This document shows positions 987 through 28,407 of a DNA stretch of 64,000 nt, one piece after another. Below the pieces are notes generated by a model. It saw only the letters and a program-made list of their open reading frames with translations. It was not told where the DNA came from and ran no database searches. The DNA lies in NCBI RefSeq assembly GCF_002201515.1, contig NZ_CP021421.1, forward strand, positions 3,038,001-3,102,000. The letters run 5' to 3'. The translations under genes and the position numbers were made by a program. Source of the stretch: Muribaculum intestinale (GTDB lineage Bacteria > Bacteroidota > Bacteroidia > Bacteroidales > Muribaculaceae). Each line of letters opens with the position of its first letter. Position 1 is the first letter of the stretch.

Positions 987-1021
987 TGCAACGTTGTTGC
1001 ATTGTCGCTGTTATATCTTTG
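987..1021 (+). promoter_or_regulatory. Promoter with palindromic operator of the CDF/CopA operon
   Basis: A perfect match to the Bacteroidetes -7 box, TATCTTTG, lies at 1014-1021, about 30 bp before the CDF start codon. The palindrome TGCAAC-GTT-GTTGCA (987-1001) covers the region where the -33 element is expected. The same palindrome, with spacer TAT, lies 24 bp before the first gene of the RND metal-efflux operon (28393-28407). I infer a metal-responsive repressor or activator site shared by both operons. Confidence 0.65.
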
Positions 1022-1052
1022 CATTCGCAATAAAGTTATTAATTGATGAATT

Positions 1053-2009
1053 ATGAATACAACGACGCAAAATCATGAGACCCACTCCTGCGAACATGCT
1101 CACCATGCACATCATGGGCATGTCCATAATATTTCGACGGATGGTGACGGACGCTTGAAGCGTGCATTTAAAATCGGCATATGGCTTAATGCCGGATATG
1201 TTGTACTTGAGGCGTTGTTTGGCTTTATGTCTGATTCGATGGGGCTTCTTTCTGATGCCGGACACAATCTGAGTGATATCTTTTCGCTCCTTGTGGCGCT
1301 TGTGGCTTTCAAAGTGTCAAAAAATAAGCCTACCGAGCGTTTTACTTATGGATTTCGTCGTGCTACAGTGAATGCCTCGGTTGTCAACGCTATTATATTA
1401 TATGTTGCAGTAATTTTTATACTCGTTGAGAGCGTACGTAAATTGTTTCACCCATCGGACGTCGAAGGCGATCTTGTCGCGTGGGTGGCGGCGGCCGGTG
1501 TGCTGATTAATGGAATTACGGCATGGTTGTTTATGAAAGACAGCCATGGTGATCTCAATGTGCGTGGCGCTTTCCTTCATATGGCGGCCGATGCTCTTGT
1601 GTCGGTAGGAGTTGTAATCAGCGGGATTGTGATAATGTGCACCGGATGGACGCTTATAGACCCGATAGTCGGCATTGTGATTGCATTGTTCATCGCGTAT
1701 GGTTCATATGGTATGCTTCGTGAAAGCATTTGCCTTGCGTTTGACGGAGTGCCGCAGGGGGTAGACCCCATAAAAGTCATGTCGGCGATTTCCGGGATTG
1801 ATGGAGTTGTTGACGTGCATCATCTTCACATTTGGGGGATAAGTACGACCGAGGTAGCCATGACGGTACATGTAATTGTAGATGATGGAGCATCAGTAGA
1901 CAGGGTAATCTGTGATGTGCGACATCTTGCGTCAGGGATGGGCATATCTCATTCCACCATTGAGGCGGAGACTTCTGAAAATGACTGCAATTCTTGTTCA
2001 TGTGGATGA
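1053..2009 (+). CDS. Cation diffusion facilitator, zinc-type exporter (CzcD/ZitB-like)
   Basis: Inner-membrane exporter that swaps cytosolic Zn2+ (possibly Cd2+ or Co2+) for protons. The 318 residues show the CDF plan: a His-rich N-terminus (10 of the first 25 residues are His), about six membrane segments and a cytoplasmic C-terminal domain ending SCSCG. The transport-site pairs are HNLSD (His71, Asp75) and HMAAD (His174, Asp178); the 2-His/2-Asp arrangement is typical of zinc-selective members, while an all-Asp-type site suits Fe or Mn. The CopA ATPase follows after 19 bp, so the two form an operon, behind the palindromic operator at 987-1001. Exact metal specificity is inferred. Confidence 0.9.
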   Translation: MNTTTQNHETHSCEHAHHAHHGHVHNISTDGDGRLKRAFKIGIWLNAGYVVLEALFGFMSDSMGLLSDAGHNLSDIFSLLVALVAFKVSKNKPTERFTYGFRRATVNASVVNAIILYVAVIFILVESVRKLFHPSDVEGDLVAWVAAAGVLINGITAWLFMKDSHGDLNVRGAFLHMAADALVSVGVVISGIVIMCTGWTLIDPIVGIVIALFIAYGSYGMLRESICLAFDGVPQGVDPIKVMSAISGIDGVVDVHHLHIWGISTTEVAMTVHVIVDDGASVDRVICDVRHLASGMGISHSTIEAETSENDCNSCSCG

Positions 2010-2028
2010 ATATTGTTAATTTTATCGT

Positions 2029-4533
2029 ATGAATATGGATAAATCTCGACATAATTATTCCGGAAACTTTGAACTTAGAGGTATGAGTTGTGCCTCATGT
2101 GCCGCACGTATCGAGCGTACTTTAAAAAAACAACCCGGTGTCAATGAGGTAGCCGTCAACTATGCGGCAGCCACTGCAAAGGTTTATTGGGATTCTGCTC
2201 TGACCGACGCTGAATCTTTATGTAGGGCTGTGCAGGATGCCGGATATGAAATGTTGGTCGCGCGTGATGTGGCTGATTCCAGCGATGACGCTGCGCGATT
2301 GCATTATCTGGCGCTACGGCGTAAGATGGCGTGGGCTATAGCGCTGTCATTGCCGGTTGTGGTTATTGGCATGGGATTCATGCACTGGATTCCGGGACAG
2401 TGGATTTCGTTCGTGCTTTCGTCAATAGTACTGTTCGGTATGGGAGGGCAGTTCTATGTCAGCGCATTCCGACAGTTGCGTCACCGCTCATGCAACATGG
2501 ATACACTTGTAGCTCTTTCAACAGGCATAGCGTGGGCATTTAGTGCGTCTAACCTGTTTTTTCCTCAGTTTTGGCTTGACCACGGGATAGAGCCTCATGT
2601 CTATTTCGAAGCTGCTTCTGTGATAATTGCATTCATATTGATTGGACGCACTCTGGAGGCCCGTGCAAAAGAGGGTACGACATCCGCTATCCGGAAACTG
2701 ATGGGCTTGCGCCCGAAATCTGTTGTCAGAATAAATTCCGATGGAGTGGGTGAAGAAGTTTCTATAGAAGCTATAGTCTCAGGAGATATACTTATGGTTA
2801 GGTCCGGCGAGCGTATCCCTGCCGACGGGAGTGTTATTTCCGGACATTCCTTTGTCGATGAAAGTATGCTGAGCGGCGAACCGGTGCCTGTTGAGAAGGA
2901 TATTGATTCAAAACTGTATGCCGGCACTATTAATGGCAATGGGACTTTGCAATTCAGAGCCGATACCGTCGGAGCCGATACCTTGCTCTCTAAAATTATA
3001 CGAATGGTGCAGGATGCGCAGGGTTCAAAACCTCCAGTCCAAAAACTTGTCGACAAGATTGCCTCATATTTTGTGCCGGTGATTATAATATTGGCTGTAA
3101 TCTCATTTTTAATATGGCTGTTTGCCTGTGGCTCAGGCGCTCTCATTCATGGCGTTCTGGCTTTAGTTACGGTGCTTATTATTGCATGTCCTTGCGCGCT
3201 CGGGCTTGCTACGCCAACTGCAATTATGGTCGGTGTCGGACGTGCAGCCACTAATGGAATACTGATAAAAGATGCCCGCGCTATTGAGGCTGCCCCGACA
3301 ATTGACACGGTAGTCCTTGATAAGACCGGGACGATAACTCAGGGACATCCTGAGATTAAACATATTGAATGGACTGAATCGGCACCATCTGATGCGGCTG
3401 ATATACTTGCTTCAATGGAGCGAATGTCTGATCATCCTATAGCTATTGCTATAGCCAACGGACTGCCGGCGGCCCATCGAGTAGATATCTCCGGTTTTGA
3501 AAATATGCCCGGGCATGGATTAAAAGGATGTATTAAGGGCAATATATGGTTTGTTGGAAATAAGCGGCTGCTTCTGCGACATGATATTGTAATCCCTGCG
3601 GGCCTTATGGCTCATGCTGAGTCGCTTGAAGCAGATGCGTCTACAGTAATCTGGGTGGCATGCGGCCCTTCAGTCATAGGCCTTGTGGCTGTAAGCGATC
3701 CGATTCGTACGACTTCATTCGATGCGATTTCCAATATGAAGCAAATGGGGCTTGACGTATGGCTTCTGACCGGAGACAATGAAGCGACTGCTGCTGCCGT
3801 AGCTAAGATAGCCGGTGTATCAAACTGGCGTGCGTCTATGTTGCCTCAGGATAAAGCTGAATTTGTAGACATGTTGCAGCGTAGATATAACCGCAAAGTT
3901 GCAATGGTGGGCGACGGAATTAACGACAGCGCGGCTTTGGCTACCGCCACTCTTGGCATTGCCATGGGACAGGGGAGTGACATTGCAATGGATGTCGCAG
4001 GAATTACCATCATATCATCAGATTTACGCCGTATACCGATTGCCATCGGGCTTTCAAAACTGACTTTGCGGACAATCCGTCAGAATCTTTTTTGGGCGTT
4101 TATTTACAATGTGATAGCAATTCCTGTAGCAGCCGGTGTGCTTTATCCGCTGTGCGGATTCTTAATGAATCCTATGATAGCAGGTGCTGCGATGGCATTC
4201 AGTAGTGTAAGTGTTGTCGCTAATTCTTTGCTGTTGAACCGCAGGCGTATAACATTGCCTATTGTGCAGCTTCCTTTGCGACCTATAGAAGAATCCGATT
4301 TAACTCCAAAACCCAATATAATAATGAAGAAAGAATACAAAGTATCCGGAATGATGTGCGGACACTGCCGTGCTCATGTAGAGAAAGCGTTGAATTCCAT
4401 TTCAGGTGTTAAGGCAACGGTAACACTTGAGCCTCCCGTCGCAACAGTCCAATTTGCCGATGGCGAATTGCCATTGGATGTTCTTCAGTCGGGTGTAAAC
4501 GATAAGGCCGGAGAATATCAATTGAGCGAATAA
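2029..4533 (+). CDS. copA: Copper-translocating P1B-type ATPase with terminal HMA domains
   Basis: Exports Cu+ across the inner membrane using ATP. The 834 residues contain an N-terminal heavy-metal-associated domain (GMSCASC, cysteines 21 and 24), membrane helices, the CPC metal site (387-389), the phosphorylated aspartate in DKTGT (Asp431) and the hinge motif GDGIND (628-633). Unusually, after the last helices a second HMA domain is fused at the C-terminus (about 766-834, MCGHC with Cys777 and Cys780). It begins with Met-Lys-Lys and looks like an appended CopZ-type chaperone; an internal start at 4324 could also make it as a free protein. It is the second gene of the CDF operon and is followed by a strong terminator. 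Confidence 0.93.
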   Translation: MNMDKSRHNYSGNFELRGMSCASCAARIERTLKKQPGVNEVAVNYAAATAKVYWDSALTDAESLCRAVQDAGYEMLVARDVADSSDDAARLHYLALRRKMAWAIALSLPVVVIGMGFMHWIPGQWISFVLSSIVLFGMGGQFYVSAFRQLRHRSCNMDTLVALSTGIAWAFSASNLFFPQFWLDHGIEPHVYFEAASVIIAFILIGRTLEARAKEGTTSAIRKLMGLRPKSVVRINSDGVGEEVSIEAIVSGDILMVRSGERIPADGSVISGHSFVDESMLSGEPVPVEKDIDSKLYAGTINGNGTLQFRADTVGADTLLSKIIRMVQDAQGSKPPVQKLVDKIASYFVPVIIILAVISFLIWLFACGSGALIHGVLALVTVLIIACPCALGLATPTAIMVGVGRAATNGILIKDARAIEAAPTIDTVVLDKTGTITQGHPEIKHIEWTESAPSDAADILASMERMSDHPIAIAIANGLPAAHRVDISGFENMPGHGLKGCIKGNIWFVGNKRLLLRHDIVIPAGLMAHAESLEADASTVIWVACGPSVIGLVAVSDPIRTTSFDAISNMKQMGLDVWLLTGDNEATAAAVAKIAGVSNWRASMLPQDKAEFVDMLQRRYNRKVAMVGDGINDSAALATATLGIAMGQGSDIAMDVAGITIISSDLRRIPIAIGLSKLTLRTIRQNLFWAFIYNVIAIPVAAGVLYPLCGFLMNPMIAGAAMAFSSVSVVANSLLLNRRRITLPIVQLPLRPIEESDLTPKPNIIMKKEYKVSGMMCGHCRAHVEKALNSISGVKATVTLEPPVATVQFADGELPLDVLQSGVNDKAGEYQLSE

Positions 4534-4546
4534 CGAGCTATATTTC

Positions 4547-4593
4547 AAAGAGTGAATATGATTGTCAGGCAGTCAATATTCACTCTTTTTTTA
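4547..4593 (+). terminator. Intrinsic terminator after copA
   Basis: A perfect 11-bp stem, AGAGTGAATAT (4549-4559) with ATATTCACTCT (4576-4586), is followed by a run of T. It closes the metal-efflux operon. Confidence 0.85.
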
Positions 4594-4679
4594 TTTGGGG
4601 TATTCTTAAAAACGATATTATGCTATCCCCATAGTGATATTTCTTATATGTAGAGAGCTTCAACTCCAAAGTTTTTTCG

Positions 4680-4687
4680 TATCTTTG
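4680..4687 (+). promoter_or_regulatory. -7 promoter box of lysC-lysA
   Basis: TATCTTTG matches the Bacteroidetes TAnnTTTG box exactly. No clear -33 TTTG sits at the right distance. It would start transcription about 85 bp before lysC; the leader shows no riboswitch I can recognise. Confidence 0.5.
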
Positions 4688-4777
4688 CGCAGATATATAC
4701 TGGTTTTATGAATCTCAGGTAGACATATTTGGAACGTAATAAAAACCGTGTTTTAACTATCATTTAAGATTACAAGG

Positions 4778-6094
4778 ATGAACGTAATGAAATTTGGCGG
4801 CACTTCGGTGGGTTCGGCCCATCGCATAAAAGAAGTTGCCGGGCTTGTTACTCAGCGAGGAAAGAACATCGTAGTCCTGTCTGCGATGTCCGGGACCACC
4901 AACACGCTTGTTGAAATATCGGAATATCTTTATAAGCGCAATATAGATGGGGCCAAGGAGACTATCAACAAACTTGAAAGTTCCTATATGCGCACAATCA
5001 GTGAACTTTATAGCTCGGATGCTGCAAAAGAAGATGCTACGCGGGAAATAAAGTCATGCTTTAACTATATACGCACATTCACAAAAGATATTTTCACTCT
5101 TTTTGAAGAGAAGGAGATTCTTGCACAGGGCGAATTGATGTCAACAGCCATGTTCAACGTATATCTGCGCTATGAACTCGGTGTGGACTCTGTGTTGCTT
5201 CCTGCGCTTGACTTTATGCGTACCGACAAGAACGCAGAACCTGACGCGCAGTATATACGGCAGAAACTTACCGCTCTGCTTGAAAAGCATCAGGATGCTG
5301 ACTTATATATTACCCAAGGATATATATGTCGAAATGCCTACGGCGAGATAGATAATCTTCAGCGTGGAGGCAGCGATTATACCGCCTCGCTGATTGGCGC
5401 AGCCATAAATGCGGATGAAATAGAAATTTGGACTGATATCGATGGAATGCATAACAATGACCCCCGTTTTGTCCAGGATACCGCTCCCGTGCATGAACTG
5501 CACTTTGAAGAAGCTGCCGAGTTGGCCTACTTCGGGGCAAAAATACTTCATCCGACCTGTGTGCTTCCAGCCAAGCTCAACAATATCCCTGTGCGTCTCC
5601 TCAACACTATGCAGCCTGATGCTGAAGGAACATTGATACACAACTATCAGACACCAAAGACAATTAAGGCTGTTGCAGCAAAGGATAATATAACGGCAAT
5701 AAAGATAAAATCAGGCCGAATGCTTCTTGCATACGGTTTCCTCCGTAAGGTATTTGAGGTATTTGAGACATATCAGACACCGATTGATATGATTGCGACA
5801 TCTGAAGTCGGGGTTTCGCTGACTATTGACAATGAGCGCAATCTTGATGGGATTCTTGATGATTTACGCAAGTTCGGAACTGTGACCATTGATCGGGATA
5901 TGGTTATCATCTGTGTGGTCGGTGATCTTGAATGGCAAAACTGCGGTTTTGAAGCCGAGGCGCTTGACGCCCTAAAAGATATTCCAGTGCGTATGATTTC
6001 GTACGGCGGTAGCAACTACAATATCTCATTCCTTATCCGCAAGGAAGACAAGGTGAAAGCCTTGAATCTTCTAAGTGAACGATTGTTTAGATAA
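4778..6094 (+). CDS. lysC: Aspartate kinase, monofunctional
   Basis: Phosphorylates L-aspartate, the first step towards lysine, threonine and methionine. The 438-residue protein opens with the kinase signature KFGGTSVGSA (5-14), has the amino-acid-kinase core to about residue 290, and then two ACT-type regulatory segments (about 305-438), where end-product feedback would act. There is no homoserine dehydrogenase domain, and the length is close to that of LysC-type enzymes. Start ATG 4778 places the KFGGTS motif at the usual position. The lysA gene follows after 15 bp, so the pair is a lysine/diaminopimelate operon, consistent with a lysine-sensitive isozyme; feedback specificity is inference. 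Confidence 0.93.
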   Translation: MNVMKFGGTSVGSAHRIKEVAGLVTQRGKNIVVLSAMSGTTNTLVEISEYLYKRNIDGAKETINKLESSYMRTISELYSSDAAKEDATREIKSCFNYIRTFTKDIFTLFEEKEILAQGELMSTAMFNVYLRYELGVDSVLLPALDFMRTDKNAEPDAQYIRQKLTALLEKHQDADLYITQGYICRNAYGEIDNLQRGGSDYTASLIGAAINADEIEIWTDIDGMHNNDPRFVQDTAPVHELHFEEAAELAYFGAKILHPTCVLPAKLNNIPVRLLNTMQPDAEGTLIHNYQTPKTIKAVAAKDNITAIKIKSGRMLLAYGFLRKVFEVFETYQTPIDMIATSEVGVSLTIDNERNLDGILDDLRKFGTVTIDRDMVIICVVGDLEWQNCGFEAEALDALKDIPVRMISYGGSNYNISFLIRKEDKVKALNLLSERLFR

Positions 6095-6109
6095 TGTTAC
6101 AGATAAAAT

Positions 6110-7255
6110 ATGGCACAGTTTCCCTTATCGGAGTTTCAAAAGCGACCGACTCCATTTTATTACTATGACCTCGGGGTCCTTGACGAGACTCTAAAGGCTA
6201 TTAATGAAGGAATAGGCCAATCGCCTTATCATGTACATTACGCCTTGAAAGCAAATGCCAATCCGGCACTCCTTACTCCAATTGTAGCTGCTGGATTAGG
6301 CGCTGACTGTGTGAGCGTCGGTGAAATCAAAGTTGCTTTAAACGCTGGATTTCCTGCTGATAAAATATTCTTTGCAGGGGTAGGCAAAAGCGACTCTGAA
6401 ATTGATTTTGCTCTTGATGCACACATCGGTTGTTTTAACGTAGAATCTCTGCCGGAACTGAAACTGATTGCAGAGATGGCTTCAAATAAGTCAATTATAG
6501 CAAATGTGGCTCTGCGAGTGAATCCGAACATTGACGCACATACACATCATTATATCACTACCGGGCTCGAAGAGAATAAATTCGGAATAGCATTGGAGAT
6601 GCTTGATGATGCAATCTCGGTATGCCTCAGGCAGCCGAATATACGTCTGTGCGGGCTTCATTTTCATATAGGTTCTCAGATTACCTATATGGAGCCATAT
6701 CGAATACTTTGTGAGCGCGTCGCGCAACTCATGAAAAAGTACTCTGCACAAGGCATACGCTTCGACATAATCAATGTCGGAGGCGGTCTTGGTATTGATT
6801 ATGATGATCCCGATTCTCAGTTGATTCCTAAGTTTAAGGAATTCTTTGATATATTCCGCAACAATCTGAATCTTGCGCCCGAGCAACAGTTGCATTTTGA
6901 ACTCGGCAGATCTGTGGCGGCTCAGTGTGGGTCTCTTATTACCCGTGTGTTATATGTCAAGGAAGGTGTAGGAAAAAAATTCATCATCGTTGATGCCGGC
7001 ATGACCGATCTTATACGTCCTGCGCTTTATGGCGCTCACCACAAAATCGAGAATCTTACTTCTGATTCCTCGCTGACTGATGAATATGATGTGGTCGGTC
7101 CGATATGTGAGTCAAGCGACTGTTTTGGCAAAGATGAGATACTCCCTGTTACGCATAGGGGTGATATCCTGGCGTTGCGCTCGGCCGGAGCATATGGTGA
7201 GGTTATGGCAATGGGTTACAATATGCGGCCAATTCCTGCCTCTGTGGTATCTTGA
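6110..7255 (+). CDS. lysA: Diaminopimelate decarboxylase
   Basis: PLP enzyme that decarboxylates meso-diaminopimelate to L-lysine, the last step of the pathway. The 381 residues form an alanine-racemase-type barrel with the PLP lysine in HYALKANAN (Lys47), the phosphate-binding NVGGGLGIDY stretch and a C-terminal beta domain with the active-site CESSDCFGKDE motif, in which the first Cys belongs to the dimer active site in this family. Length is slightly shorter than the roughly 415-420 residues of proteobacterial enzymes but normal for Bacteroidetes. It is co-transcribed with lysC and followed by a terminator. Confidence 0.93.
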   Translation: MAQFPLSEFQKRPTPFYYYDLGVLDETLKAINEGIGQSPYHVHYALKANANPALLTPIVAAGLGADCVSVGEIKVALNAGFPADKIFFAGVGKSDSEIDFALDAHIGCFNVESLPELKLIAEMASNKSIIANVALRVNPNIDAHTHHYITTGLEENKFGIALEMLDDAISVCLRQPNIRLCGLHFHIGSQITYMEPYRILCERVAQLMKKYSAQGIRFDIINVGGGLGIDYDDPDSQLIPKFKEFFDIFRNNLNLAPEQQLHFELGRSVAAQCGSLITRVLYVKEGVGKKFIIVDAGMTDLIRPALYGAHHKIENLTSDSSLTDEYDVVGPICESSDCFGKDEILPVTHRGDILALRSAGAYGEVMAMGYNMRPIPASVVS

Positions 7256-7278
7256 TATTTTAAAGCAAATATAAAACT

Positions 7279-7323
7279 GATGACTATGTCTGTTATTGTG
7301 GCATAGTCATCGGTATTTTTTTC
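7279..7323 (+). terminator. Intrinsic terminator after lysA
   Basis: The stem GATGACTATG (7279-7288) pairs with CATAGTCATC (7302-7311), followed by a T-rich tail. It separates the lys operon from the convergent GH43 gene. Confidence 0.8.
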
Positions 7324-7342
7324 AAAGGTAGAAGTCAAATCC

Positions 7343-8389
7343 TTATTTGATTTCTTTGGGACTGACATATGGACCGGATGGTGCCGGTTTATCTGTGACT
7401 ATGGGACATCTGGGCACGACTTCCAATATTTCGCCATTCGGGCCATAGAAAAGTTCGTCAACACATATGCTGCGCAGGTTTCCTTGGCCTGAAAGTGCCT
7501 GATTATGGTAGAAAGCATAGCTATGTCCTTTGTATTCAACAATAGACCCATGAGATGTGTCACATCCTGTAGGCTGTAGATATATGCCTCCGTATTCCCA
7601 TGGGCCAAGTGGAGACTTGCTTGATGCCCAATGCAGACGGTTGGCTCCACGACCATTTTCCGCATGATTGTCGGCATATGTGATATAATATCTGTCATTG
7701 TATTTGTGTACCCATGTAGCTTCATGAAAGTCGGTAAGCCCATCCATATTACGCAGAGGCTCAGCAAGTTCTATCATATTTTCTTTAAGCCGTGCTCCTA
7801 CGCATCGTCCGCCTCCTCCATAATAAAAATAGGCTTCTCCATTATCATCTACAAATACACATGGATCAATCATAGCGAATACATCATCTTCCATTCCTGT
7901 CATGATCATTGGTCTGTCGAGTACTTTGAAATCTGATGCAGGCTTGTCGCTGACTGCAATGCCTACGCGCCAGGTGTTGTTCCAGTCTGATCCTGAAGGG
8001 TGGGGGAAATAGAAATAGTACTTGCCATTCTTGTAAGCACAGTCAGGAGCCCACATGAATCCACCTTCCGTACGTCCCCATGCGACATCTCCTGAGTTGA
8101 GTATTTCTCCGTGATCGGTCCAGTTGACCATATCATCGGTTGAGAATACATGATAACGATCCATACGATCGCATCCGGCAGGCGGATCTATATCATGAGA
8201 CGCATATACATAAAGCCGTCCGTCTTCCCAAACATGAGCCGATGGATCGGCAGTATACATGTGGGTGATAAATGGATTGTCTGCAAGTTGCAATGGTGTC
8301 TGTGGGCCAAGAGTCTTTGACGGCGAACAGCTCAGCGTCATACCAACTACGGCAAATGCAATCATACTGTGATAAAAAAATCGTTTCAT
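7343..8389 (-). CDS. Glycoside hydrolase family 43 lipoprotein
   Basis: Predicted surface or periplasmic glycosidase acting on arabinose- or xylose-containing plant glycans. A signal sequence ends in a lipobox (TLSC, Cys21). The five-bladed propeller fold of GH43 is indicated by the catalytic triad in order: base Asp48 (ADPSAHVW), modulating Asp175 (MIDPCVF) and general acid Glu223 (FHEATW). The 348 residues hold one catalytic domain with no added carbohydrate-binding module. No SusC/SusD pair or regulator is adjacent, so this is a lone enzyme rather than part of a visible utilisation locus. The exact substrate (arabinofuranoside, xyloside or arabinan) cannot be read from the sequence. Confidence 0.88.
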   Translation of the reverse strand: MKRFFYHSMIAFAVVGMTLSCSPSKTLGPQTPLQLADNPFITHMYTADPSAHVWEDGRLYVYASHDIDPPAGCDRMDRYHVFSTDDMVNWTDHGEILNSGDVAWGRTEGGFMWAPDCAYKNGKYYFYFPHPSGSDWNNTWRVGIAVSDKPASDFKVLDRPMIMTGMEDDVFAMIDPCVFVDDNGEAYFYYGGGGRCVGARLKENMIELAEPLRNMDGLTDFHEATWVHKYNDRYYITYADNHAENGRGANRLHWASSKSPLGPWEYGGIYLQPTGCDTSHGSIVEYKGHSYAFYHNQALSGQGNLRSICVDELFYGPNGEILEVVPRCPIVTDKPAPSGPYVSPKEIK

Positions 8390-8520
8390 AACTTTATTTT
8401 ATTGGTACGTACTAAATTTCGATAACTTCATTGCACTGAATATAAAACCGAATGAATAGATTGTTCGACTGATGTCCCGACCTAATTGGGCTGTCACAGT
8501 TCTATTCGGTTGCTTATTGG

Positions 8521-8528
8521 CAAAAGTA
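8521..8528 (-). promoter_or_regulatory. -7 promoter box upstream of the GH43 gene
   Basis: The minus strand reads TACTTTTG, a full match to TAnnTTTG, about 130 bp before the GH43 start. No good -33 box accompanies it, so confidence is moderate. Confidence 0.4.
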
Positions 8529-8619: not shown

Positions 8620-8632
8620 ATATTGTGAATTG

Positions 8633-19870: not shown

Positions 19871-21026
19871 CAATAAAAAGAAAGTGTTTGTGTCGGGGTG
19901 CTACGATATGCTTCACTCCGGTCATGTGGCTTTCTTCAAAGAGGCCTCACGCTACGGTGATCTTTATGTAGGCATTGGTTCCGACAGTACAATCGAGGGC
20001 CTCAAAAACCGCAAGACAGTGTACTCTGAAAAGGAGCGCCTGTATATGGTGAAGTCAATCCGGTATGTTACTGATGCATATATAAATTCAGGTAGTGGCA
20101 TGCTTGATTTTCTTGACACGCTTGATCGAGTAAAGCCTGATATTTTCGTTGTCAACTCTGATGGCGGCTCTGAGCTCAAACGAAATCTCTGTCGGGAAAA
20201 AGGCATCGAATATGTAGAACTTGAACGAGTGCCGGATGCCGGATTGGAGGCCAGGTCGACAACATCTTTGCGGAAAGGTGTAAAATCTCACCTTCCATAC
20301 CGCGTAGATATCGCCGGTACATGGATAGACCAGCCATATGTATCGGAATATGGGGCAGGATGGGCACTTACTATCTCGATAGAACCGACTGTCGAATTTA
20401 TGGAACGTGGCGGCATGTCGACATCGACACGTAATGCTGCAAAGAAAATCTGGCCTTATGAGCTTCCGAATTACAATGAAGAGATGCTCGCGCGACTTCT
20501 GTTCTGCTTCGAGAATGATCCGGAGAACAAAGGACATATTTCCGGGGCTCAGGATGCGATAGGCATTTGTATGTCCGGTCTTAACCGTCATTATTATGAT
20601 GGACATTACTGGCCGGCAAAAATTGAATCATGCCACGATGAGAATGTCCTGTCATGGCTTGAGAATCATATTGTGCTTATTCCGATGTTTCCACGGCGTC
20701 CGGGCTGTTCTGTTGTGGAAGGCAAGGATATCACGCCGGCGAAGGTGAGACGTCTTACAGAAGCTGCCGACCGTTGCTGGGACGCTGTGATGCGTTGCAA
20801 CCTTCATGAGTTTGCCGCAGCATTCCGCGATTCTTTTGAAGCACAGATTTCAATGTTCCCCGCAATGATGCAGCCCGGAGTGGAGGAATATATCAATCGT
20901 TGGCGTAATCATGCCCTGGCATGGAAGATGCTTGGAGCCGGAGGTGGCGGTCATCTTGCTCTTGTAGTAGACCGGATACCCGAGGATGAAAATATCATAC
21001 GAATAAAAATCAGAAGAAAAGAATAA
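19860..21026 (+). CDS. Fused nucleotidylyltransferase and GHMP-kinase-like protein
   Basis: Two domains are visible in 388 residues. Residues 8-135 are a cytidylyltransferase-type Rossmann domain with the HxGH motif (SGCYDMLHSGH) and a later RSTTSLR substrate/nucleotide loop resembling ISSTxIR. Residues 143-388 resemble a GHMP sugar kinase: PYRVDIAGTWID, a degenerate P-loop GGMSTSTRNAA, and LGAGGGGHLALVV near the end. This is a compact analogue of bifunctional sugar-activating enzymes such as HldE or Fkp, but with a different domain pairing. It overlaps the transporter by 11 bp and precedes GDP-L-fucose synthase by 36 bp. The substrate is unknown; a salvaged sugar phosphorylated and then activated to an NDP-sugar fits the context. 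Confidence 0.72.
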   Translation: MQTDNKKKVFVSGCYDMLHSGHVAFFKEASRYGDLYVGIGSDSTIEGLKNRKTVYSEKERLYMVKSIRYVTDAYINSGSGMLDFLDTLDRVKPDIFVVNSDGGSELKRNLCREKGIEYVELERVPDAGLEARSTTSLRKGVKSHLPYRVDIAGTWIDQPYVSEYGAGWALTISIEPTVEFMERGGMSTSTRNAAKKIWPYELPNYNEEMLARLLFCFENDPENKGHISGAQDAIGICMSGLNRHYYDGHYWPAKIESCHDENVLSWLENHIVLIPMFPRRPGCSVVEGKDITPAKVRRLTEAADRCWDAVMRCNLHEFAAAFRDSFEAQISMFPAMMQPGVEEYINRWRNHALAWKMLGAGGGGHLALVVDRIPEDENIIRIKIRRKE

Positions 21027-21062
21027 CCAATATCGCTAAAATAGGAAAGAATAGTTAGCACT

Positions 21063-22004
21063 ATGGAAAAAGACTCGAAAATTTACGTTGCCGGTCACAG
21101 AGGCATGGTAGGCTCAGCTATCGTGCGCGAACTTCGCCGACAGGGGTATACTAATATTATAACCCGTACTCACAAGGAACTCGACCTCATCAATCAGCAG
21201 GCTGTAAATGATTTCTTTGCAGCCGAGAAGCCGGATTATGTCTTTCTTGCCGCAGCAAAAGTTGGCGGAATAGAAGCCAACCAGTCGGCTCTTGCCGATT
21301 TTATGTATGACAACATGATGCTTGAAATGAATGTTATCAATGCAGCCTGGAAAAACGGTGTCAAGAAATTGGAGTTCTTGGGGTCGTCATGTATATACCC
21401 GCGCATGGCACCACAGCCTATGCCTGAATCGTGTCTGTTGACTTCCGAACTTGAAAAAACCAACGAGGCATACGCTCTTGCCAAAATCTCGGGACTGAAG
21501 TACTGCGAGTTTCTCAATCGTCAGTATGGCACGGACTATATATCGGTTATGCCGACTAACCTTTATGGACCGAATGATAATTATCATCCGACGCATTCGC
21601 ATGTGCTACCTGCGCTTATCCGCCGATTCCATGAAGCTAAGGAAGCCGGACTTGAGGAGGTGACATGCTGGGGTGACGGTACACCGCTTCGCGAATTTCT
21701 CTATGTCGACGACCTTGCCAATCTGTGTGTTTTCCTTATGAATAATTATTCCGGCAATGAGACTGTAAACGCCGGTACCGGCAAAGAGCTGACAATCCTG
21801 GAACTCACTGAGCTCGTTGCAAAAACGGTAGGGTATAAGGGCCGTATACTATGGAATACCGACATGCCTAATGGAACTCCACGTAAACTCCTTGATGTAA
21901 GCAAGGCTAAGGCTCTTGGCTGGACATATACAACAGAACTCCCCGAAGGCATACGTCTTGCCTATGAGGATTTCCTCTCCAATCCTATGCGTGCTGAGCG
22001 TTGA
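21063..22004 (+). CDS. fcl: GDP-L-fucose synthase
   Basis: Epimerises and reduces GDP-4-keto-6-deoxy-mannose to GDP-L-fucose using NADPH. The 313 residues form an extended SDR with the N-terminal [10 protein letters not shown] (11-20), the FLGSSCIYP substrate loop and the catalytic Tyr137-x3-Lys141 ([10 protein letters not shown]). Later [19 protein letters not shown] and [12 protein letters not shown] motifs are characteristic of Fcl/WcaG. The partner GDP-mannose 4,6-dehydratase (gmd) is not in this window. The product is the expected donor for the GT11 fucosyltransferase at 63.2-64 kb. A terminator follows. Confidence 0.94.
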
Positions 22005-22031
22005 TTGAGACGTACTATACATCAATATAGG

Positions 22032-22066
22032 AGGGGGCTGTCATTTTTTTGATATGCCCCCTTTTC
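22032..22066 (+). terminator. Intrinsic terminator after fcl
   Basis: AGGGGGC (22032-22038) pairs with GCCCCCT (22056-22062) followed by TTTT. It ends the SPOR-folE-transporter-fcl run. Confidence 0.75.
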
Positions 22067-22100
22067 ATAATAACCTCTATCCCGGCAGACAATTTCCCAA

Positions 22101-22137
22101 AATAAAAAGGGGCGTCACTCTCACGAGTTCCACCCCC
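22101..22137 (-). terminator. Intrinsic terminator after sodB
   Basis: On the minus strand a GGGGTG...CGCCCC stem with an inner ACTC/GAGT pairing is followed by TTTTTATTTT. It lies about 50 bp beyond the sodB stop and faces the fcl terminator. Confidence 0.7.
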
Positions 22138-22187
22138 GGCATTCATCACATTATGCTAAAAGTGCGATTTATGTCTTTGTCAGGCTT

Positions 22188-22781
22188 TTATTTTACGGAA
22201 TATCGCGACGATACTACATCCCAGTCGATGATGTCCCATAATCTATGTAGAGCATCGGCACGACGGTTCTGATAGTCGAGATAATAGGCGTGCTCCCATA
22301 CATCAAAGCAGAGCAGAGGAGTCAGACCCTGGGTAAGAGGGTTGGCGGCATTAGGGCCTTGTGTTATGAACAGACGTCCATCCTTATCCTGAGACAACCA
22401 TACCCACCCCGAGCCGAACAAATCGACACCGGCTTTTTCAAAAAGTTTTTTGAACTCATCGAATGATTCGAAATCACGTTTGATAGCTTCCGCAAGAGGC
22501 CCCTGCGGTTCACCTCCGCCATCAGGCGAGAATGAGAAGAAATAAAATATATGGTTCCATGCCTGCGACGCATTATTGAACAGAGGGCCATTGGCAGTCT
22601 TGATAATCTCTTCAAGAGGTGTGTCCTCCCATTCTGTATCACGAATCAGTCGATTAAGATTGTCGATATAAGTCTTTTCATGCTTTCCCCAGTGGTAGCT
22701 GATAGTTTCAGCGCTGATGGCAGGCTCAAGAGCATCGGACGCATAGGGGAGTTTTGGCTGGCTATATACGTTTGTTTCCAT
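22188..22781 (-). CDS. sodB: Superoxide dismutase, Fe/Mn family
   Basis: Detoxifies superoxide in the cytosol. The 197 residues keep all metal ligands: His30 (ISYHWGKH), His77 (WNHIFYF), Asp160 and His164 (FDVWEHAYY). Gln in LFNNASQ and Gly-rich FSFSPDGGGEPQG resemble iron or cambialistic enzymes of Bacteroides, which accept Fe or Mn depending on oxygen exposure. It lies downstream of the RND efflux operon in the same direction but is separated by a terminator-like hairpin that abuts its start codon. Confidence 0.95.
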   Translation of the reverse strand: METNVYSQPKLPYASDALEPAISAETISYHWGKHEKTYIDNLNRLIRDTEWEDTPLEEIIKTANGPLFNNASQAWNHIFYFFSFSPDGGGEPQGPLAEAIKRDFESFDEFKKLFEKAGVDLFGSGWVWLSQDKDGRLFITQGPNAANPLTQGLTPLLCFDVWEHAYYLDYQNRRADALHRLWDIIDWDVVSSRYSVK

Positions 22782-22828
22782 AAAAAGGCGTTATTTGGTT
22801 AATAGATATTTTCTTCCCAAATAACGCC
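22782..22828 (-). terminator. Terminator-like hairpin directly before the sodB start codon
   Basis: A perfect 12-bp repeat, GGCGTTATTTGG (22787-22798) with CCAAATAACGCC (22817-22828), reads on the minus strand as stem then TTTTT then ATG of sodB. It should end the RND efflux transcript. Because the U-run touches the sodB start codon, it may also act as an attenuator or a stabilising 5' structure of sodB. Confidence 0.7.
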
Positions 22829-22857
22829 ATAAACAGCCAAAAGGTTCTCGCCGGAGA

Positions 22858-24048
22858 TTAATTTCCCGGATTATAACGAGCCAACTGTGCCATTGCCTGT
22901 TGGTAACGATACTGTATTTCCAGCATCCGTAATATTGCGTCGGTATGCGAGGCTGATTCAATAAGGTACACCATCATGCTTATCTGGCCACCCTCCAGCG
23001 CCCGAAGCAATAGTCGGGGAGTCGGGGAATCTGTCAAAACTTTGTGGTATGATTCATACTGCGTCTTGAACTGCATCGCTGACGCATGTATGGACTCTAA
23101 CGATAATCGCTGCTCTATAGCCTGCTGTTCGGCGCGAGCCTCTGCTGCCATGCTTTCAAGGCGTGCGGCCTCCGACTTGCCTCTGGTGGAGAACACAGGT
23201 ATTGATAATCCCGCTACAAACCCATGAAACGGGGTACCCTCCTCTCTGGCAAAATGATATCCCGCAGTAAGGGAAGGAAGCGACCGGCGGCGCTCAGCTT
23301 CACTCCGTGCCCGAGATGCCTCGGCAAGTATTCTTGACTGCTCCACCTCGGGCGTTTCATCAAGTTTGTCGCTGTATATAGCAAGAGGATGAAGCATTTC
23401 GGCCGGGTAGTCTTCAATCGCATTATATATGTCTTTTGCATTTTCAATCGACCCGATAAATGCTCCGATTGCCGATATACATTGTGTCGCTTGAGTGTTG
23501 AGCTCAGTCTGTCTTGCAAGTACTTCAAGCCTTTCAAGTTTCAGTTTCTCGACATCAAGCAATGTGATTTCATTGCGCAGAGCGCCTTTCGTGGCGATAT
23601 CAAGCAGAGAATCGATGCATTCCATGCGATTTACCATTACTTGATGGCATTTATTAAGGTATACACCTTCTGCCAGTAGAATCCGAGCGTTTTCTCGTGC
23701 GCTGATTATTGTGGCTTGTTCCGACAGGTTGGTTGCCTTTGACTGAAGTCGGGCCTCACGTCGCATCGCGCTGTATACTCCCGGCCATTCCATCGATTGG
23801 CTTACTGTAATATCGGTCTTGTTTCCAGGCTCCCCGCTACTCCACATATATCCTCCTTCGATTTCCGGATCCGGGAGCATGGCTGCAGATCGCAGACTTT
23901 CCCTTTGGGCGGCATAGGCATATGCTTCACTGCGTAGGCCCGGATTGAGAGCAATCATACGGTCGACAAGGGAGTCAAAACTCTCTCCGCTTGCATGGAG
24001 CACGACTGTGGATGCAACTATGAGGGCGATTGTTCTTATAGATTTCAT
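22858..24048 (-). CDS. Outer-membrane factor of heavy-metal RND efflux (CusC/TolC family)
   Basis: Outer-membrane channel that forms a tripartite pump with the two genes before it. The 396 residues have a cleavable signal peptide (about 1-22, HASG) and the TolC-family repeat organisation: MLPDPEIEGGYMWSSG in the first half, long helical segments rich in Glu, Arg and Ala, and the matching LPSLTAGYHFAREEGT in the second half. There is no lipobox, unlike many CusC proteins. It lies 4 bp after the RND gene and is the last gene before the hairpin. Confidence 0.87.
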   Translation of the reverse strand: MKSIRTIALIVASTVVLHASGESFDSLVDRMIALNPGLRSEAYAYAAQRESLRSAAMLPDPEIEGGYMWSSGEPGNKTDITVSQSMEWPGVYSAMRREARLQSKATNLSEQATIISARENARILLAEGVYLNKCHQVMVNRMECIDSLLDIATKGALRNEITLLDVEKLKLERLEVLARQTELNTQATQCISAIGAFIGSIENAKDIYNAIEDYPAEMLHPLAIYSDKLDETPEVEQSRILAEASRARSEAERRRSLPSLTAGYHFAREEGTPFHGFVAGLSIPVFSTRGKSEAARLESMAAEARAEQQAIEQRLSLESIHASAMQFKTQYESYHKVLTDSPTPRLLLRALEGGQISMMVYLIESASHTDAILRMLEIQYRYQQAMAQLARYNPGN

Positions 24049-24052
24049 GAGT

Positions 24053-27000
24053 CTATTTCTTACGGTGTTGTACGTAATAATAAAGTATCGGTATTACAAA
24101 GATATTCAGAAGAGTCGATGTAAGTAATCCTCCGAGAATCACAATGGCCATAGGCGACTGCAGTTCATTGCCGGGATCTCCTCCACGCAAGGCAAGAGGA
24201 GCAAGCGCCAATGCCGAAGTAAGTGCTGTCATTATAATCGGAAGCAGGCGGTCGGAACTGCCTTTTAATATTCGTTCAGACAGAGCGAGGCCATCATTGT
24301 GCAATGAGTTGTAGCGGGATATTAGCAACATGCCATTGCGTGTTGTGATACCAAGCAGTGATATAAATCCAATTATTGCAGGAATGTTCAATTCGCCTGA
24401 GGTCAGTCGCAGCATTAATACACCCCCAATCATTGCCAGTGGCATGTTGACAAGTATTATCAGAGACTCCTTGATATCATGGAATTCCATATACAGAAGT
24501 ATCAGAATGATTATAAGAGCTCCGATTGATGCTAAAACAAGAGTTCTGGTGGCAGCGGCTTCACTTTCAAATTGACCGCTGTAGACAACGTTGTATCCCT
24601 CGGGAATCTTAATCTTTTCTTCAATAACGTTACGTGCTTCATTGACAGCTCCTCGAAGGTCACGTTCCTCAACATTGGCCGATACTACAATCCTACGGTT
24701 GAGATTCTCTCGATTAATAGTATTTGGGCCGGAGGTCGATACGACATCTGCGACATAGGTTATTGGCACTACTCCTCGTTGAGTGTCTATTGTCAACGAA
24801 GATATTCCGTCAATACTGCCTCTCCATCGTTCGCTGCTCATTAGCCTTATAGAGCGGGGGATACCGTCATCATAAATCTTTCCCACTTCAGTACCTCCGA
24901 TATTCACGCTGACCCAGCGGGCAAGCTGTCCTGGGGTTATGCCATAGTAGGCCATTGCATGACGTCGGGGACGTATCTCAAGATGCGGACGTTCTACCTG
25001 CTGTTCAACGGCAATGTCCGTAATCCCATTGACGTCGCCGATAGCATTGGATATCTCTGTTGCGGTGCGATGGAGAGTAGGAAGATCCGGTCCAAAAATT
25101 TTTATGGCAATCTGGGCCTCTGTTCCCGAAAGCATGGCATCAATACGATGAGATACCGGCTGGCCGATTTCAATGTTGACTCCGGGGATATCTGCGAGTT
25201 TATGACGCAGTTCGTCGGCCACTTCAGAGCGCGTGCGTCCGTCAAGTATGTAAGGTGCTTCGATTTCACTTACATTGACTCCAAGAGAGTGTTCGTCAAG
25301 TTCGGCACGTCCTGTTTTTCTTGCAACCGTTGTTATCTCGGGCACCTCCATTATTATTTTTTCAGCAATGCGTCCGATACGGTCGCTCTCTTCAAGCGAT
25401 ATGCCCGGCATGGCACTTATGTTTATCGTAAATGAGCCTTCATTGAACGGCGGCAGGAAGCTGCGTCCAAGTGTGGCCATAATGCACATCGAGGCCACAA
25501 ACAATATTCCGGTCCACCAAAGTATGGCGCGTTTATGCCGCATGCCTGTGGTGAGCGCATTATTATACACGCGTCGGAGCCATGCCGCAGGTGCCGGCTC
25601 TTTATCTTTTGTGCCGGACGCGGAATCTCCGAGAAGATAGCTGCACAATACCGGAGTAAGGGTGAGGGCTACAATTGTAGATGCTATCAGCGATACGATA
25701 AAAGCTATTCCAAGCGAGCCGAGCAGACGGCCTTCGATGCCATGTAGGAAGAAGAGCGGCAGGAAACTCGCCATGATGATAAGAGAGGAGTTGAATATCG
25801 GCATTCTTACCTCTCGGGATGCTTCATAGACTACGCTGACTACATTCTTCTGCTGCTCCTTCGGCAATGCGCGGTTTGCCCGAAGACGTTTGTAAACATT
25901 TTCTACGTCGACAATGGCATCGTCCACCAGGGATCCGATGGCAATTGCAATGCCTCCAAGTGTCATGGTATTAATGGTAAGTCCCATGGCATGTAGAACA
26001 AAAATGGTCACTATAATCGACATGGGGATAGCAATGACCGATATCAGCGTAGTGCGTATGTCCATAAGGAAAAAGAAGAGCACTACGATTACAAATATTG
26101 CACCCTCGAAGAGCGATTGCTGCAGATTATTTACAGAACTGTCGATAAAGTCAGCCTGTCGGAATATGTCTGTCGATACATTAATGTCCTTTGGTAGTGA
26201 AGGAACAAGTTGTGCGAGTTTTGCTTCTATTGCTTTTGTGAGACGGGTTGTCGATGCGCCGGTCTGTTTGCTTACGGTGAGTAGTATAGCTTCTTTACCT
26301 CTCTCTCCTGCAGCTCCGATACGTGGAGTGGCACCACCACGTTCGATTACGGCAATATCGCTCAATGTTACCGGAGCACCGGTGTTCGCATTGTCATTGC
26401 CGATGATTTTTACTACTGTCAGGCCAAGTTCATCGGCACGGCTTGTGGATATACTCCCTTTTACAAGATATTCATTCCCAAAGTCGCTAAGATTGCCTCC
26501 GGAAGAGTTTGTATTCAATCCATCGCAGGCCGCCAATACTTCCTCAAGGGATATTCCGTAGTGGGCCATTTGAGGTGTATTGAGTTTTATCTGTATCTCC
26601 TCTTCCTGGCCACCGAGTACCGATACTTGTGACACCCCTTCAATGGCAAGTAGCGCCGGACGTAGTGTACGGTCGGCAATGGTACGAAGCTGTAGCATTG
26701 ACAGGGAGTCTGTTGATAAAGAATCGGTCTTGTTGGTAAGCCCTATTATAAGCACTTCGCCAAGTACCGAAGTGGGAGGTCCCATCACTGGAATCCCTGC
26801 CTCGGGAGCAAGTGTGGATCCTATTCCGGATAGACGCTCGGATATTCCCTGGCGGGCCTTGTATGGGTCAACGCCCCATTCATGCTCAACCCATACTACT
26901 GAGAATCCTGCGGAACTTGAAGAGCGTACACGTCTTACTCCTGGAGCACCGCCCATTGCTGTCTCTATGGGGTAGGTGACAAGTTTCTCTACTTCTTCAG

Positions 27001-27178
27001 GAGCAAGGCCGCCGGCCTCGGTCATTATTGCCACCGTAGGAGCATTTAGGTCTGGGAAAATATCGACATCAAATGTGTCGCGAAGCATAGCCACGCATCC
27101 GACAATCAATAATAGCGCCGCCGCAACAAGAACCAGTTTGCGTCGGTCAAGTGAGCCTTTTATTATTCTGTCAAGCAT
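24053..27178 (-). CDS. Heavy-metal efflux RND transporter (CusA/CzcA family)
   Basis: Proton-driven inner-membrane pump of the heavy-metal efflux RND class. The 1041 residues show the RND plan: N-terminal helix, large periplasmic loop, helices 2-6, a second loop and helices 8-12. Family motifs include DLNAPTVAIMTEAGGLAPEEVEKLVTYP-like opening and the helix-4 stretch IGSLVDDAIVDVENV with its proton-relay acids. Compared with E. coli CusA, I do not see the full methionine triad that binds copper, so Zn/Co/Cd or another metal is possible. It is between the adaptor (14 bp) and the outer-membrane factor (4 bp). Confidence 0.92.
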   Translation of the reverse strand: MLDRIIKGSLDRRKLVLVAAALLLIVGCVAMLRDTFDVDIFPDLNAPTVAIMTEAGGLAPEEVEKLVTYPIETAMGGAPGVRRVRSSSSAGFSVVWVEHEWGVDPYKARQGISERLSGIGSTLAPEAGIPVMGPPTSVLGEVLIIGLTNKTDSLSTDSLSMLQLRTIADRTLRPALLAIEGVSQVSVLGGQEEEIQIKLNTPQMAHYGISLEEVLAACDGLNTNSSGGNLSDFGNEYLVKGSISTSRADELGLTVVKIIGNDNANTGAPVTLSDIAVIERGGATPRIGAAGERGKEAILLTVSKQTGASTTRLTKAIEAKLAQLVPSLPKDINVSTDIFRQADFIDSSVNNLQQSLFEGAIFVIVVLFFFLMDIRTTLISVIAIPMSIIVTIFVLHAMGLTINTMTLGGIAIAIGSLVDDAIVDVENVYKRLRANRALPKEQQKNVVSVVYEASREVRMPIFNSSLIIMASFLPLFFLHGIEGRLLGSLGIAFIVSLIASTIVALTLTPVLCSYLLGDSASGTKDKEPAPAAWLRRVYNNALTTGMRHKRAILWWTGILFVASMCIMATLGRSFLPPFNEGSFTINISAMPGISLEESDRIGRIAEKIIMEVPEITTVARKTGRAELDEHSLGVNVSEIEAPYILDGRTRSEVADELRHKLADIPGVNIEIGQPVSHRIDAMLSGTEAQIAIKIFGPDLPTLHRTATEISNAIGDVNGITDIAVEQQVERPHLEIRPRRHAMAYYGITPGQLARWVSVNIGGTEVGKIYDDGIPRSIRLMSSERWRGSIDGISSLTIDTQRGVVPITYVADVVSTSGPNTINRENLNRRIVVSANVEERDLRGAVNEARNVIEEKIKIPEGYNVVYSGQFESEAAATRTLVLASIGALIIILILLYMEFHDIKESLIILVNMPLAMIGGVLMLRLTSGELNIPAIIGFISLLGITTRNGMLLISRYNSLHNDGLALSERILKGSSDRLLPIIMTALTSALALAPLALRGGDPGNELQSPMAIVILGGLLTSTLLNIFVIPILYYYVQHRKK

Positions 27179-27192
27179 ATTCTGTCCGGATA

Positions 27193-28368
27193 TTAATGAT
27201 TATGTGAATGCCCTTCCGGAATCTTGCCGCTGTTCTCAGCCATCTTCAGAATCATGGCACCGTTGGTGACAACACTGTCCGACGGAACAAGTCCGGCCTT
27301 GACTTCTACAATTTTTCCGTCGGTCACCCCAAGTGAAAGACGCCGTTTTTCATATCCATGGTCATCCACTTTGACATAGGCGAAATATTCGCCCTCACTT
27401 TCCACCACAGCTTCTACTGGAATTGTAGATCCTGTCACGTCATTGTCATCTTCGAGAATAACCCATATATCGGTGTATACACCCTGTGACAATGACCCGT
27501 CGTTAGGGATGGAAAAGTATATCGGCATATAATTACCGTTTGTTGCAGCTGTACCTTTTGTATCCTCGATAATTGAGCCTCCAAGCATACTTACGGATTT
27601 GACATTATCGGGAGAATCTGCTGTGGCGAAGTTGGCATCAACAATCATGCCGGCCACATTGCGCATTGACAATGGAAGGTCAACACGAAGCAAAAGTCGG
27701 CTGTCAGTCGATGTTTCTACTACAGGTGTTCCGGCCTCCACCCATTCACCATCGGCTACATTCACTTTTATTATCGTTGCTTTCTGTGAAGCCGTGACTG
27801 CACTTCCTGAACCATTTCCGCTGTATGCAGCGCTTAGTCGTTTTACTGTCGACAGTGCCGATTGATAATCTCGCTCACTCACTATGCCTTCATTGCGTAG
27901 CGGCTCTATGCGCTCGAGTTCTTTCTGTGCGGCGGCCAATTCTTCAGATGCAACGGCGTTGGCGTCACCTCCTGCAATTCCTTTGCCGCTGACGGTAGCT
28001 ACGCGTTCTCCGGGACGTAGCGATGCGCCGGCGACTGCACGTGGCGACAGCCGAACTATGCCCGCCGAACGGGATGACAGTATTTGTCGCCCAGTGCCGG
28101 GTACTGCTTCGAGCGCGCCCCACGCCCGGACTATGCGAGGCAGCTTGCAGTCTGCAACCTGTTCGACTTTGACGCCAAATCGATGTGCCGAATGTGGCGA
28201 TAATATGATTTCTTCTGAAGAATGTTCGTGTTCCTCGCTTTCGGACTCGGCATGATTGTCATGTCCTGTACATGAGATAAGTCCGGAGAATACAAAAGTT
28301 GCCGCAAGTGTTAATACACTACGGCAATAATGAATATTAGTCGGTATCATTGCTTGATTGGTTTTCAT
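27193..28368 (-). CDS. Periplasmic adaptor of heavy-metal RND efflux (CusB/CzcB family lipoprotein)
   Basis: Membrane-fusion protein that links the RND pump to the outer-membrane channel. The 391 residues begin with an extended N-terminus and a lipobox (GLISC) followed by a His/Glu-rich metal-binding stretch (HAESESEEHEHSSEE), then barrel-sandwich and helical-hairpin segments (AQKELERIEPLRNEGIVSERDY), and end in a His-rich tail (EGHSHNH). His-rich ends suit a Zn- or Cu-type substrate. It is the first gene of the operon; the palindrome TGCAAC-TAT-GTTGCA lies 24 bp upstream. Confidence 0.9.
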   Translation of the reverse strand: MKTNQAMIPTNIHYCRSVLTLAATFVFSGLISCTGHDNHAESESEEHEHSSEEIILSPHSAHRFGVKVEQVADCKLPRIVRAWGALEAVPGTGRQILSSRSAGIVRLSPRAVAGASLRPGERVATVSGKGIAGGDANAVASEELAAAQKELERIEPLRNEGIVSERDYQSALSTVKRLSAAYSGNGSGSAVTASQKATIIKVNVADGEWVEAGTPVVETSTDSRLLLRVDLPLSMRNVAGMIVDANFATADSPDNVKSVSMLGGSIIEDTKGTAATNGNYMPIYFSIPNDGSLSQGVYTDIWVILEDDNDVTGSTIPVEAVVESEGEYFAYVKVDDHGYEKRRLSLGVTDGKIVEVKAGLVPSDSVVTNGAMILKMAENSGKIPEGHSHNH

Positions 28369-28392
28369 GGCGCTAATTTAAGCAATAAATAG

Positions 28393-28407
28393 TGCAACTA
28401 TGTTGCA
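28393..28407 (-). promoter_or_regulatory. Palindromic operator of the RND efflux operon
   Basis: TGCAAC (28393-28398), spacer TAT, GTTGCA (28402-28407). The half-sites and the 3-nt spacing are identical to those at 987-1001 upstream of the CDF/CopA operon; both are preceded by TT on the reading strand, giving TTTGCAACnnnGTTGCA. No other such pair with this spacing was noticed in the window. Confidence 0.65.

Follow-up and report, generated by a model that had tools for sequence, protein, structure and literature searches.

A probable palindromic operator at two metal-efflux operons of Muribaculum intestinale and a candidate Fur-family regulator

Within a stretch of 64,000 nucleotides of the Muribaculum intestinale genome (RefSeq assembly GCF_002201515.1, contig NZ_CP021421.1, positions 3,038,001 to 3,102,000, hereafter the window), two metal-efflux operons 27 kb apart are preceded by the same palindrome, TGCAAC-N3-GTTGCA. 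One operon encodes a cation diffusion facilitator (CDF) and a P1B-type ATPase, the other a resistance-nodulation-division (RND) pump with its partners. Does the palindrome mark both operons as targets of one regulator, and which protein would that be? The comparisons described here suggest that both sites are probably operators of a single metal-sensing protein of the Fur family, here called FurX, which would turn efflux on when metal is in excess.

A motif scan found the palindrome exact at both operons (Table 1), and these two copies are the only exact ones in the window and in the whole genome (3,306,969 bases scanned), where the reversed control motif has none. Allowing up to three mismatches gives 32 matches in the window, against an average of 30.6 in shuffled sequence, and the exact copies alone are therefore notable. 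Finding a 6-N-6 palindrome twice is, judged post hoc, no rare event: for four of the eight spacer lengths from 0 to 7 one arm occurs twice in the window. The argument therefore depends on where the sites lie and on their conservation. Between the end of operator 1 and the CDF start codon (ATG) there are 51 bp, and 24 bp separate the end of operator 2, on the minus strand, from the ATG of the RND adaptor gene. When a predicted -7 promoter box is added to the pattern and up to three mismatches are allowed, the window pair ranks best in the genome (0 and 1 mismatch), followed by three more matches at three mismatches; the control gives one. A relaxed motif, TTGCAAYN3RTTGCA with two mismatches, was set aside as too loose for reliable extra targets (136 forward matches in the genome versus 64 for the control). 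The first-pass annotation of this DNA had reported the two copies as exact, as the sole such pair in the window, with TT on the same side (upstream of each site, read toward its own operon) and with no regulator gene adjacent, all of which is borne out: the flanking open reading frame (ORF) at 269-667 has no Pfam match and that at 28471-29187 has a carbohydrate-binding match. It had also held that a motif common elsewhere would speak against a shared regulon; the genome has two exact copies, both at efflux operons.

The position of the palindrome relative to the promoter was compared across 198 genomes of the host's family, 74 of which contain the exact motif and 12 the reversed control. From 106 exact sites, 75 in 55 of the 74 motif-bearing genomes were examined for a -7 box of the Bacteroidota pattern TAnnTTnG, with TAnnTTTG as its perfect form. 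At 43 sites such a box follows after 12 or 13 bp, giving 44 promoters because one site is boxed on each side; 37 have a gap of 12 bp and seven a gap of 13 bp, and 42 have the perfect box. Any other distance from 0 to 30 bp occurs at most once each, and the concentration of 44 of 52 boxes at two of 31 distances corresponds to a binomial p of about 2e-44. The remaining 32 sites lack a -7 box, and many of them lie inside ORFs, as expected of chance matches. In the available text on Flavobacterium psychrophilum, TAnnTTTG spans -12 to -5 (PMC9723704). With the box at that position and a gap of 12 bp, the operator would cover -39 to -25, the place of the -33 box.

What stands at this place was also examined in a second set, the matches listed, comprising at least 119 stretches with at least 121 sites (mean flanks of about 3.5 and 4.1 kb); these stretches were chosen with the -7 box in the pattern, and their spacing is not independent evidence. 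Intergenic TAnnTTTG boxes were found for 52 of 359 genes considered in the window and 400 kb of the host genome, and 18 of these 52 host promoters have a TTG at the -33 position (spacer of 19-20 bp), versus none of the 44 operator promoters. Among the matches listed, such a TTG is present at one of 121 promoters; the operator's fixed letters fill its place. Moreover, the palindrome is flanked asymmetrically. At the two positions upstream, T has frequencies of 0.89 and 0.92 in 37 family promoters, versus 0.22 and 0.19 for the mirror AA, and among the matches listed (n = 111 promoters) the values are 0.80 and 0.87 versus 0.31 and 0.32. A symmetric dimer alone would have no side preference, so something tied to promoter direction, most simply RNA polymerase, seems to be involved. 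Separately, an ATG follows the -7 box by four nucleotides in the window (28366-28380) and at L036, L110, L113, L139 and L215 (L numbers denote loci and G numbers genomes), which predicts either that the mRNA is leaderless or that translation starts further downstream. Leaderless mRNA was rejected as a general feature, with an ATG at this distance in 5 of the 44 family promoters and 1 of 118 among the matches listed.

The candidate regulator emerged from locus L033, where FurX and an HMA gene are transcribed divergently from a single palindrome that has a box on either side (13 and 12 bp); the gene adjoining this site led to FurX. The host genome has three Fur-family genes, of which FurX, the ortholog of the L033 protein, is the third and weakest-scoring. 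It lies outside the window, 218 kb from the RND operon (G000:C1:3284623-3285063, minus strand), and scores 26.8 bits against the FUR profile PF01475 (cut-off 23.1), the L033 homolog reaching 33 bits. FurX orthologs are set apart from paralogs in the family, scoring at least 68 bits in 102 of the 198 genomes, with the next group at about 41 bits and lower. The exact motif is present in 56 of the 102 FurX-bearing genomes versus 18 of the 96 without FurX (Fisher 1.8e-7), and FurX accompanies a promoter-linked site in 31 of 34 genomes, versus 7 of 21 genomes with other sites only.

The association extends to the class level. In a draw of 295 genomes of the class, 18 carry the site together with its box when one mismatch is allowed, and a FurX homolog (E 1.5e-10 or better) is present in 16 of them versus 92 of the 277 others (Fisher 3.6e-6). 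This cut-off was chosen after the list had been seen, hence a second count at 60 bits or more, which gives 13 of 18 versus 61 of 277 (Fisher 1.8e-5). No more than 3 kb separates homolog and site in 11 of the 18, two of these 11 homologs being weak (42 and 55 bits). Among the matches listed, FurX lies within 2.5 kb of the site at 34 of 121, and the other two host Fur types (L160, L161) at none; a PerR/Fur paralog was thus rejected as the regulator. At the 35 listed sites with FurX in the stretch, FurX ends just upstream on the same strand in 14 cases and lies further down the same strand in 13. The site adjoins FurX in several Bacteroidales and also in an Ignavibacteriaceae bin (L216). Altogether, FurX is very probably the cognate regulator.

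Within the genus, the palindrome follows the presence of FurX. Close CDF orthologs with the exact site are found in the host genome (G000), G106 and G144 (three of three), all FurX-bearing, and G057, without FurX, has no site at its CDF ortholog. At the RND operon, a site is present in all eight assessable FurX-bearing genomes, host included, versus neither of two genomes lacking FurX, G057 and G179 (Fisher 0.02). The site is exact in G000, G144, G132 and G076, has one mismatch in G037 and two in G013, G163 and G092, and the box is always at 12 bp. Left out of this count were G119, G155 and G172, which have FurX and no close RND ortholog, and G106, whose contig breaks off within the gene. The unit headed by the site in G163 and G076 is longer and begins with a gene that we take to be HerA-like, and the G037 site stands some 570 bp upstream of the adaptor gene. 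Conservation at orthologous operons, which the first-pass annotation had named as the other point on which a shared regulon depends, is thus found in three of three and eight of eight FurX-bearing genus members, the host genome being counted in both. Rarity, conservation and target genes support its suggestion of a shared metal-sensing regulator, and co-localization and co-occurrence with FurX support the Fur type, one of the two (Fur and ArsR) that it had considered.

The FurX protein has features of a metal sensor. Across 54 aligned sequences the invariant residues are T23, R26, R59, H71, G76, C85, H97, H99, C102, C105, C110, G136, C138 and C141, of which C102/C105 and C138/C141 form two CxxC pairs matching the structural zinc site. 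The position of C110 is taken by E or D in the five solved Fur-family proteins compared. The sensor ligands of Escherichia coli Zur are H77, C88, H96 and E111, and its sequence aligned to FurX with a gap at the C110 position. H71, C85, H97/H99 and C110 would make a plausible Cys/His metal site. FurX is not closest to Zur among the solved proteins, since the Fur entries 9ire, 6d57 and 4ets score slightly higher (49-50 bits) than the Zur entries 2o03 and 4mtd (42 bits), a small difference.

The nature of the targets points to efflux. The first recognized gene was sought within 700 bp of each listed site and labeled by its best-scoring seed, with spot checks. Among the 121 matches listed, the first genes are ZntA-like ATPases (56), ArsP_1 permeases (10), RND pumps (7), DUF6660 (6), CDF (5), adaptors (5), TonB receptors (5), FeoAB (3), DUF6769 (2), FurX (2), HMA (2), an outer-membrane protein (1), ZIP (1) and others (9), seven sites being too near an end; efflux types (ATPases, ArsP_1, RND pump, CDF, adaptor and outer-membrane protein) make up 84. 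The CPC motif is present in 50 of 51 ATPases, and the ATPase at L283 passes the cadmium model and falls below the copper model's cut-off. The metal, inferred from the commonest targets, is most likely zinc or cadmium, and copper is possible for the window ATPase, which fits the copper model best and also passes the cadmium model (399 versus a cut-off of 313.5). The zinc/copper label of the first-pass annotation is a fair one in view of the profile scores for the CDF, the copper-model P1B ATPase and the CusA/CzcA heavy-metal pump. FeoAB-like genes (L199, L210, L241, L244), ZIP (L310) and TonB receptors (L198, L243, L268) also stand behind the operator, and an efflux-only regulon does not explain them. 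Small His-rich proteins of about 100-145 residues, DUF6769- or DUF6660-like, often precede the adaptor or RND pump (L155, L157, L158, L135 and L152, and among the matches listed, for example, L288); the window RND operon has no such gene.

In the proposed mechanism, a FurX dimer would bind TTTGCAAC-N3-GTTGCA across -39 to -25, where the -33 box would otherwise stand, and toxic metal in excess would lead FurX to switch the efflux operon on. We infer FurX binding, the dimer, the metal, the transcription start and the direction of control. That FurX raises efflux in metal excess is likely. Because efflux must rise in metal excess, a metal-bound DNA binder would activate and a metal-free one would repress. 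Activation, with metal-loaded FurX making up for the absent -33 contact from its fixed place, is the preferred version and may well be right; fixed spacing, the lack of a -33 element and the directional TT favor it over an apo-repressor. MerR-family efflux activators such as ZntR and CueR have a palindrome at a fixed promoter place, between -35 and -10; the proposed FurX operator is also a fixed-position palindrome, but the protein families are unrelated and the site here replaces the -33 box. Such a substitution would be a MerR-like or sigma-adaptor mode, atypical of Fur proteins, and we advance it only tentatively, jointly with the broader proposal that FurX is a phylum-wide efflux activator of Bacteroidota, metal-bound, replacing the sigma -33 contact and having a Cys in place of the usual acidic ligand.

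It is possible, if somewhat doubtful, that metal-free FurX on the -33 region instead blocks RNA polymerase and is released on metal binding. Overlap of the operator with the promoter core favors repression, as does the habit of the Fur family, in which repression is the commoner mode. A regulator gene downstream in the pump unit is the usual layout of autoregulated efflux repressors, and FurX lies further down the pump unit's strand at 13 of 121 sites among the matches listed. Corynebacterium glutamicum Zur at zrf/zra provides a precedent, with a site overlapping -35 and repression at low zinc (PMC6103462, available text). However, a blocking site would need neither one fixed distance, nor the loss of the -33 TTG in 44 of 44 promoters, nor TT upstream only. 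A metal-loaded co-repressor of the classical Zur kind, with transporters serving uptake or metal balance rather than detoxification, is improbable: the same palindrome is predicted for a Desulfovibrio Zur at znuABC (PMC545781, available text) and the FeoAB, ZIP and TonB-receptor targets would suit it, but the preponderance of efflux-type first genes among the matches listed, 56 of 121 being ZntA-like ATPases, and the CDF, P1B ATPase and CusA/CzcA pump of the window units argue against it. The site might belong to a different, unlinked regulator, FurX merely accompanying metal genes, which would agree with the lack of a regulator beside either window operon and the many listed sites without FurX, linkage searches having covered Fur types only. 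This is very improbable, given that site and FurX are absent together in the genus (0/2 vs 8/8) and are neighbors in several Bacteroidales and L216. Chance palindromes, suggested by the readily repeated 6-N-6 arms in the window and by the family sites lacking a box, many within ORFs, are scarcely credible as an explanation in view of fixed spacing and conservation, and very unlikely for the two window sites.

Several observations weigh against the proposed FurX reading. The -33 element is weak in the phylum and, in the available text of PMC7366714, unidentified in F. johnsoniae, so its absence alone proves little. The predominance of repression in the Fur family, noted above, tells in the same direction. 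There is no site within 1.5 kb on either side of host FurX; with the same result for its G106 and G144 orthologs, autoregulation in the host genome was rejected. FurX is missing from the stretch at 86 of the 121 sites among the matches listed and from the 18 motif-bearing family genomes counted above, and 46 of the 102 FurX-bearing family genomes have no exact motif. Three of the 34 genomes with a promoter-linked site have no FurX found (G120, G068 and G002; 88, 85 and 99% complete), nor do two of the 18 in the class (G229 and G200; both 99% complete, site with one mismatch). Class-level homologs reach down to 42 bits, where orthology is less certain, and the reversed control of the class pattern has one match (G457). 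The genus contrast depends on two genomes lacking FurX: G179 is 82% complete, making its FurX absence less certain, and has 7 N in the stretch upstream, whereas G057 (99% complete; L152) has TGCAAC followed five nucleotides on by TTGC, 98 bp before the DUF6769-like first gene of its RND unit. The latter is a possible decayed operator, which we read as loss. Finally, FeoAB (3), ZIP (1) and TonB receptors (5) among the 121 matches listed are not exporters.

Table 1. Predicted operators, promoter boxes and genes of the two efflux operons in the window.
Feature	Position	Strand	Remarks
Operator 1 TGCAACGTTGTTGCA	987..1001	+	exact motif; directional TT at 985-986
Predicted -7 promoter box TATCTTTG	1014..1021	+	12 bp downstream of operator 1
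CDF cation-efflux gene	1053..2009	+	PF01545; TIGR01297 above cut-off; best named model ZitB, below cut-off
P1B-type heavy-metal ATPase, best fit copper type, two HMA stretches	2029..4533	+	TIGR01511 575 bits, cut-off 397
Outer-membrane efflux protein	22858..24048	-	PF02321; no NCBIfam match
CusA/CzcA-type heavy-metal RND pump	24053..27178	-	TIGR00914 734 bits, cut-off 701
RND periplasmic adaptor (HlyD_3)	27193..28368	-	TIGR01730 below cut-off
Predicted -7 box TAAATTAG, one mismatch	28373..28380	-	12 bp downstream of operator 2; ATG 4 nucleotides after
Operator 2 TGCAACATAGTTGCA (read toward the RND operon)	28393..28407	-	exact motif; directional TT at 28408-28409

Genes next to the two operons may be of interest in their own right. 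A Fe/Mn superoxide dismutase gene (22188-22781, minus strand) lies 77 bp past the RND operon, and an ORF of 197 residues is found at the same place in G057 (L152) and G179 (L158); the superoxide dismutase may belong to the unit. Behind the CDF-ATPase operon lies an aspartate-kinase and decarboxylase pair (4778-7255), and in G037 and G076 (L136, L156, L135) ORFs resembling both genes of this pair, or just the second, lie ahead of the operator and RND unit. Efflux operons may swap beside the pair.

Control of efflux by Fur-family proteins has precedents, described here as far as the available text of each source goes. Rodionov et al. (2004) predicted a Zur_D of Desulfovibrio with the consensus ATGCAACNNNGTTGCAT ahead of znuABC, a zinc uptake operon, in two genomes (PMC545781). 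Its 6-3-6 palindrome core is identical to that of the window operators, and a Fur/Zur/PerR-family gene lies in the operon; however, the operon there serves zinc uptake, whereas here the palindrome precedes Bacteroidota efflux genes and keeps a constant distance to the -7 box. The outer A...T of ATGCAACNNNGTTGCAT is not conserved in the operators studied here. Zur-controlled zinc efflux is described for Streptomyces coelicolor zitB, Xanthomonas campestris xc2976 and C. glutamicum zrf/zra (PMC6103462), which resembles the proposed role of FurX in that Fur-family proteins control CDF and P-type ATPase exporters. The DNA differs, being respectively a Zur box upstream of -35, a GC-rich stretch of 59 bp and a 10-1-10 direct repeat, and the Zur regulons of S. 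coelicolor and C. glutamicum also contain uptake genes (PMC6103462). Within the phylum, Porphyromonas gingivalis PgFur/Har is a Fur-family protein with two CXXC motifs like FurX (PMC6613475, PMC4222909), but PgFur is described as having no histidine-rich regulatory motifs and as binding the hmu promoter (Har the dnaA promoter), in contrast to the invariant H71, C85, H97, H99 and C110 of FurX. A ZntR homolog is reported to regulate zinc homeostasis in Riemerella anatipestifer (PMC11960050), sharing phylum and zinc role; ZntR belongs to the MerR family (PMC6103462), not to Fur. PMC12119571 deals with a P. gingivalis zinc CDF and with an RNA-binding protein, and the available text of that paper and of PMC12574912 contains nothing on a Fur regulator of efflux in Bacteroidota. 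No paper among the matches listed, which leave subscription journals mostly uncovered, connects the operator with a Bacteroidota Fur protein, and the regulon may already be published.

Control of metal efflux in Bacteroidota, a dominant gut phylum, seems little described. The present comparison gives the operator's exact sequence, names a candidate regulator gene and lists dozens of target operons, which opens the proposal to direct tests. One palindrome used for uptake in Desulfovibrio, as predicted, and for efflux here would amount to opposite wiring of a single DNA word, and the rigid geometry raises the question of whether a Fur protein might act as an activator by standing in for the -33 contact.

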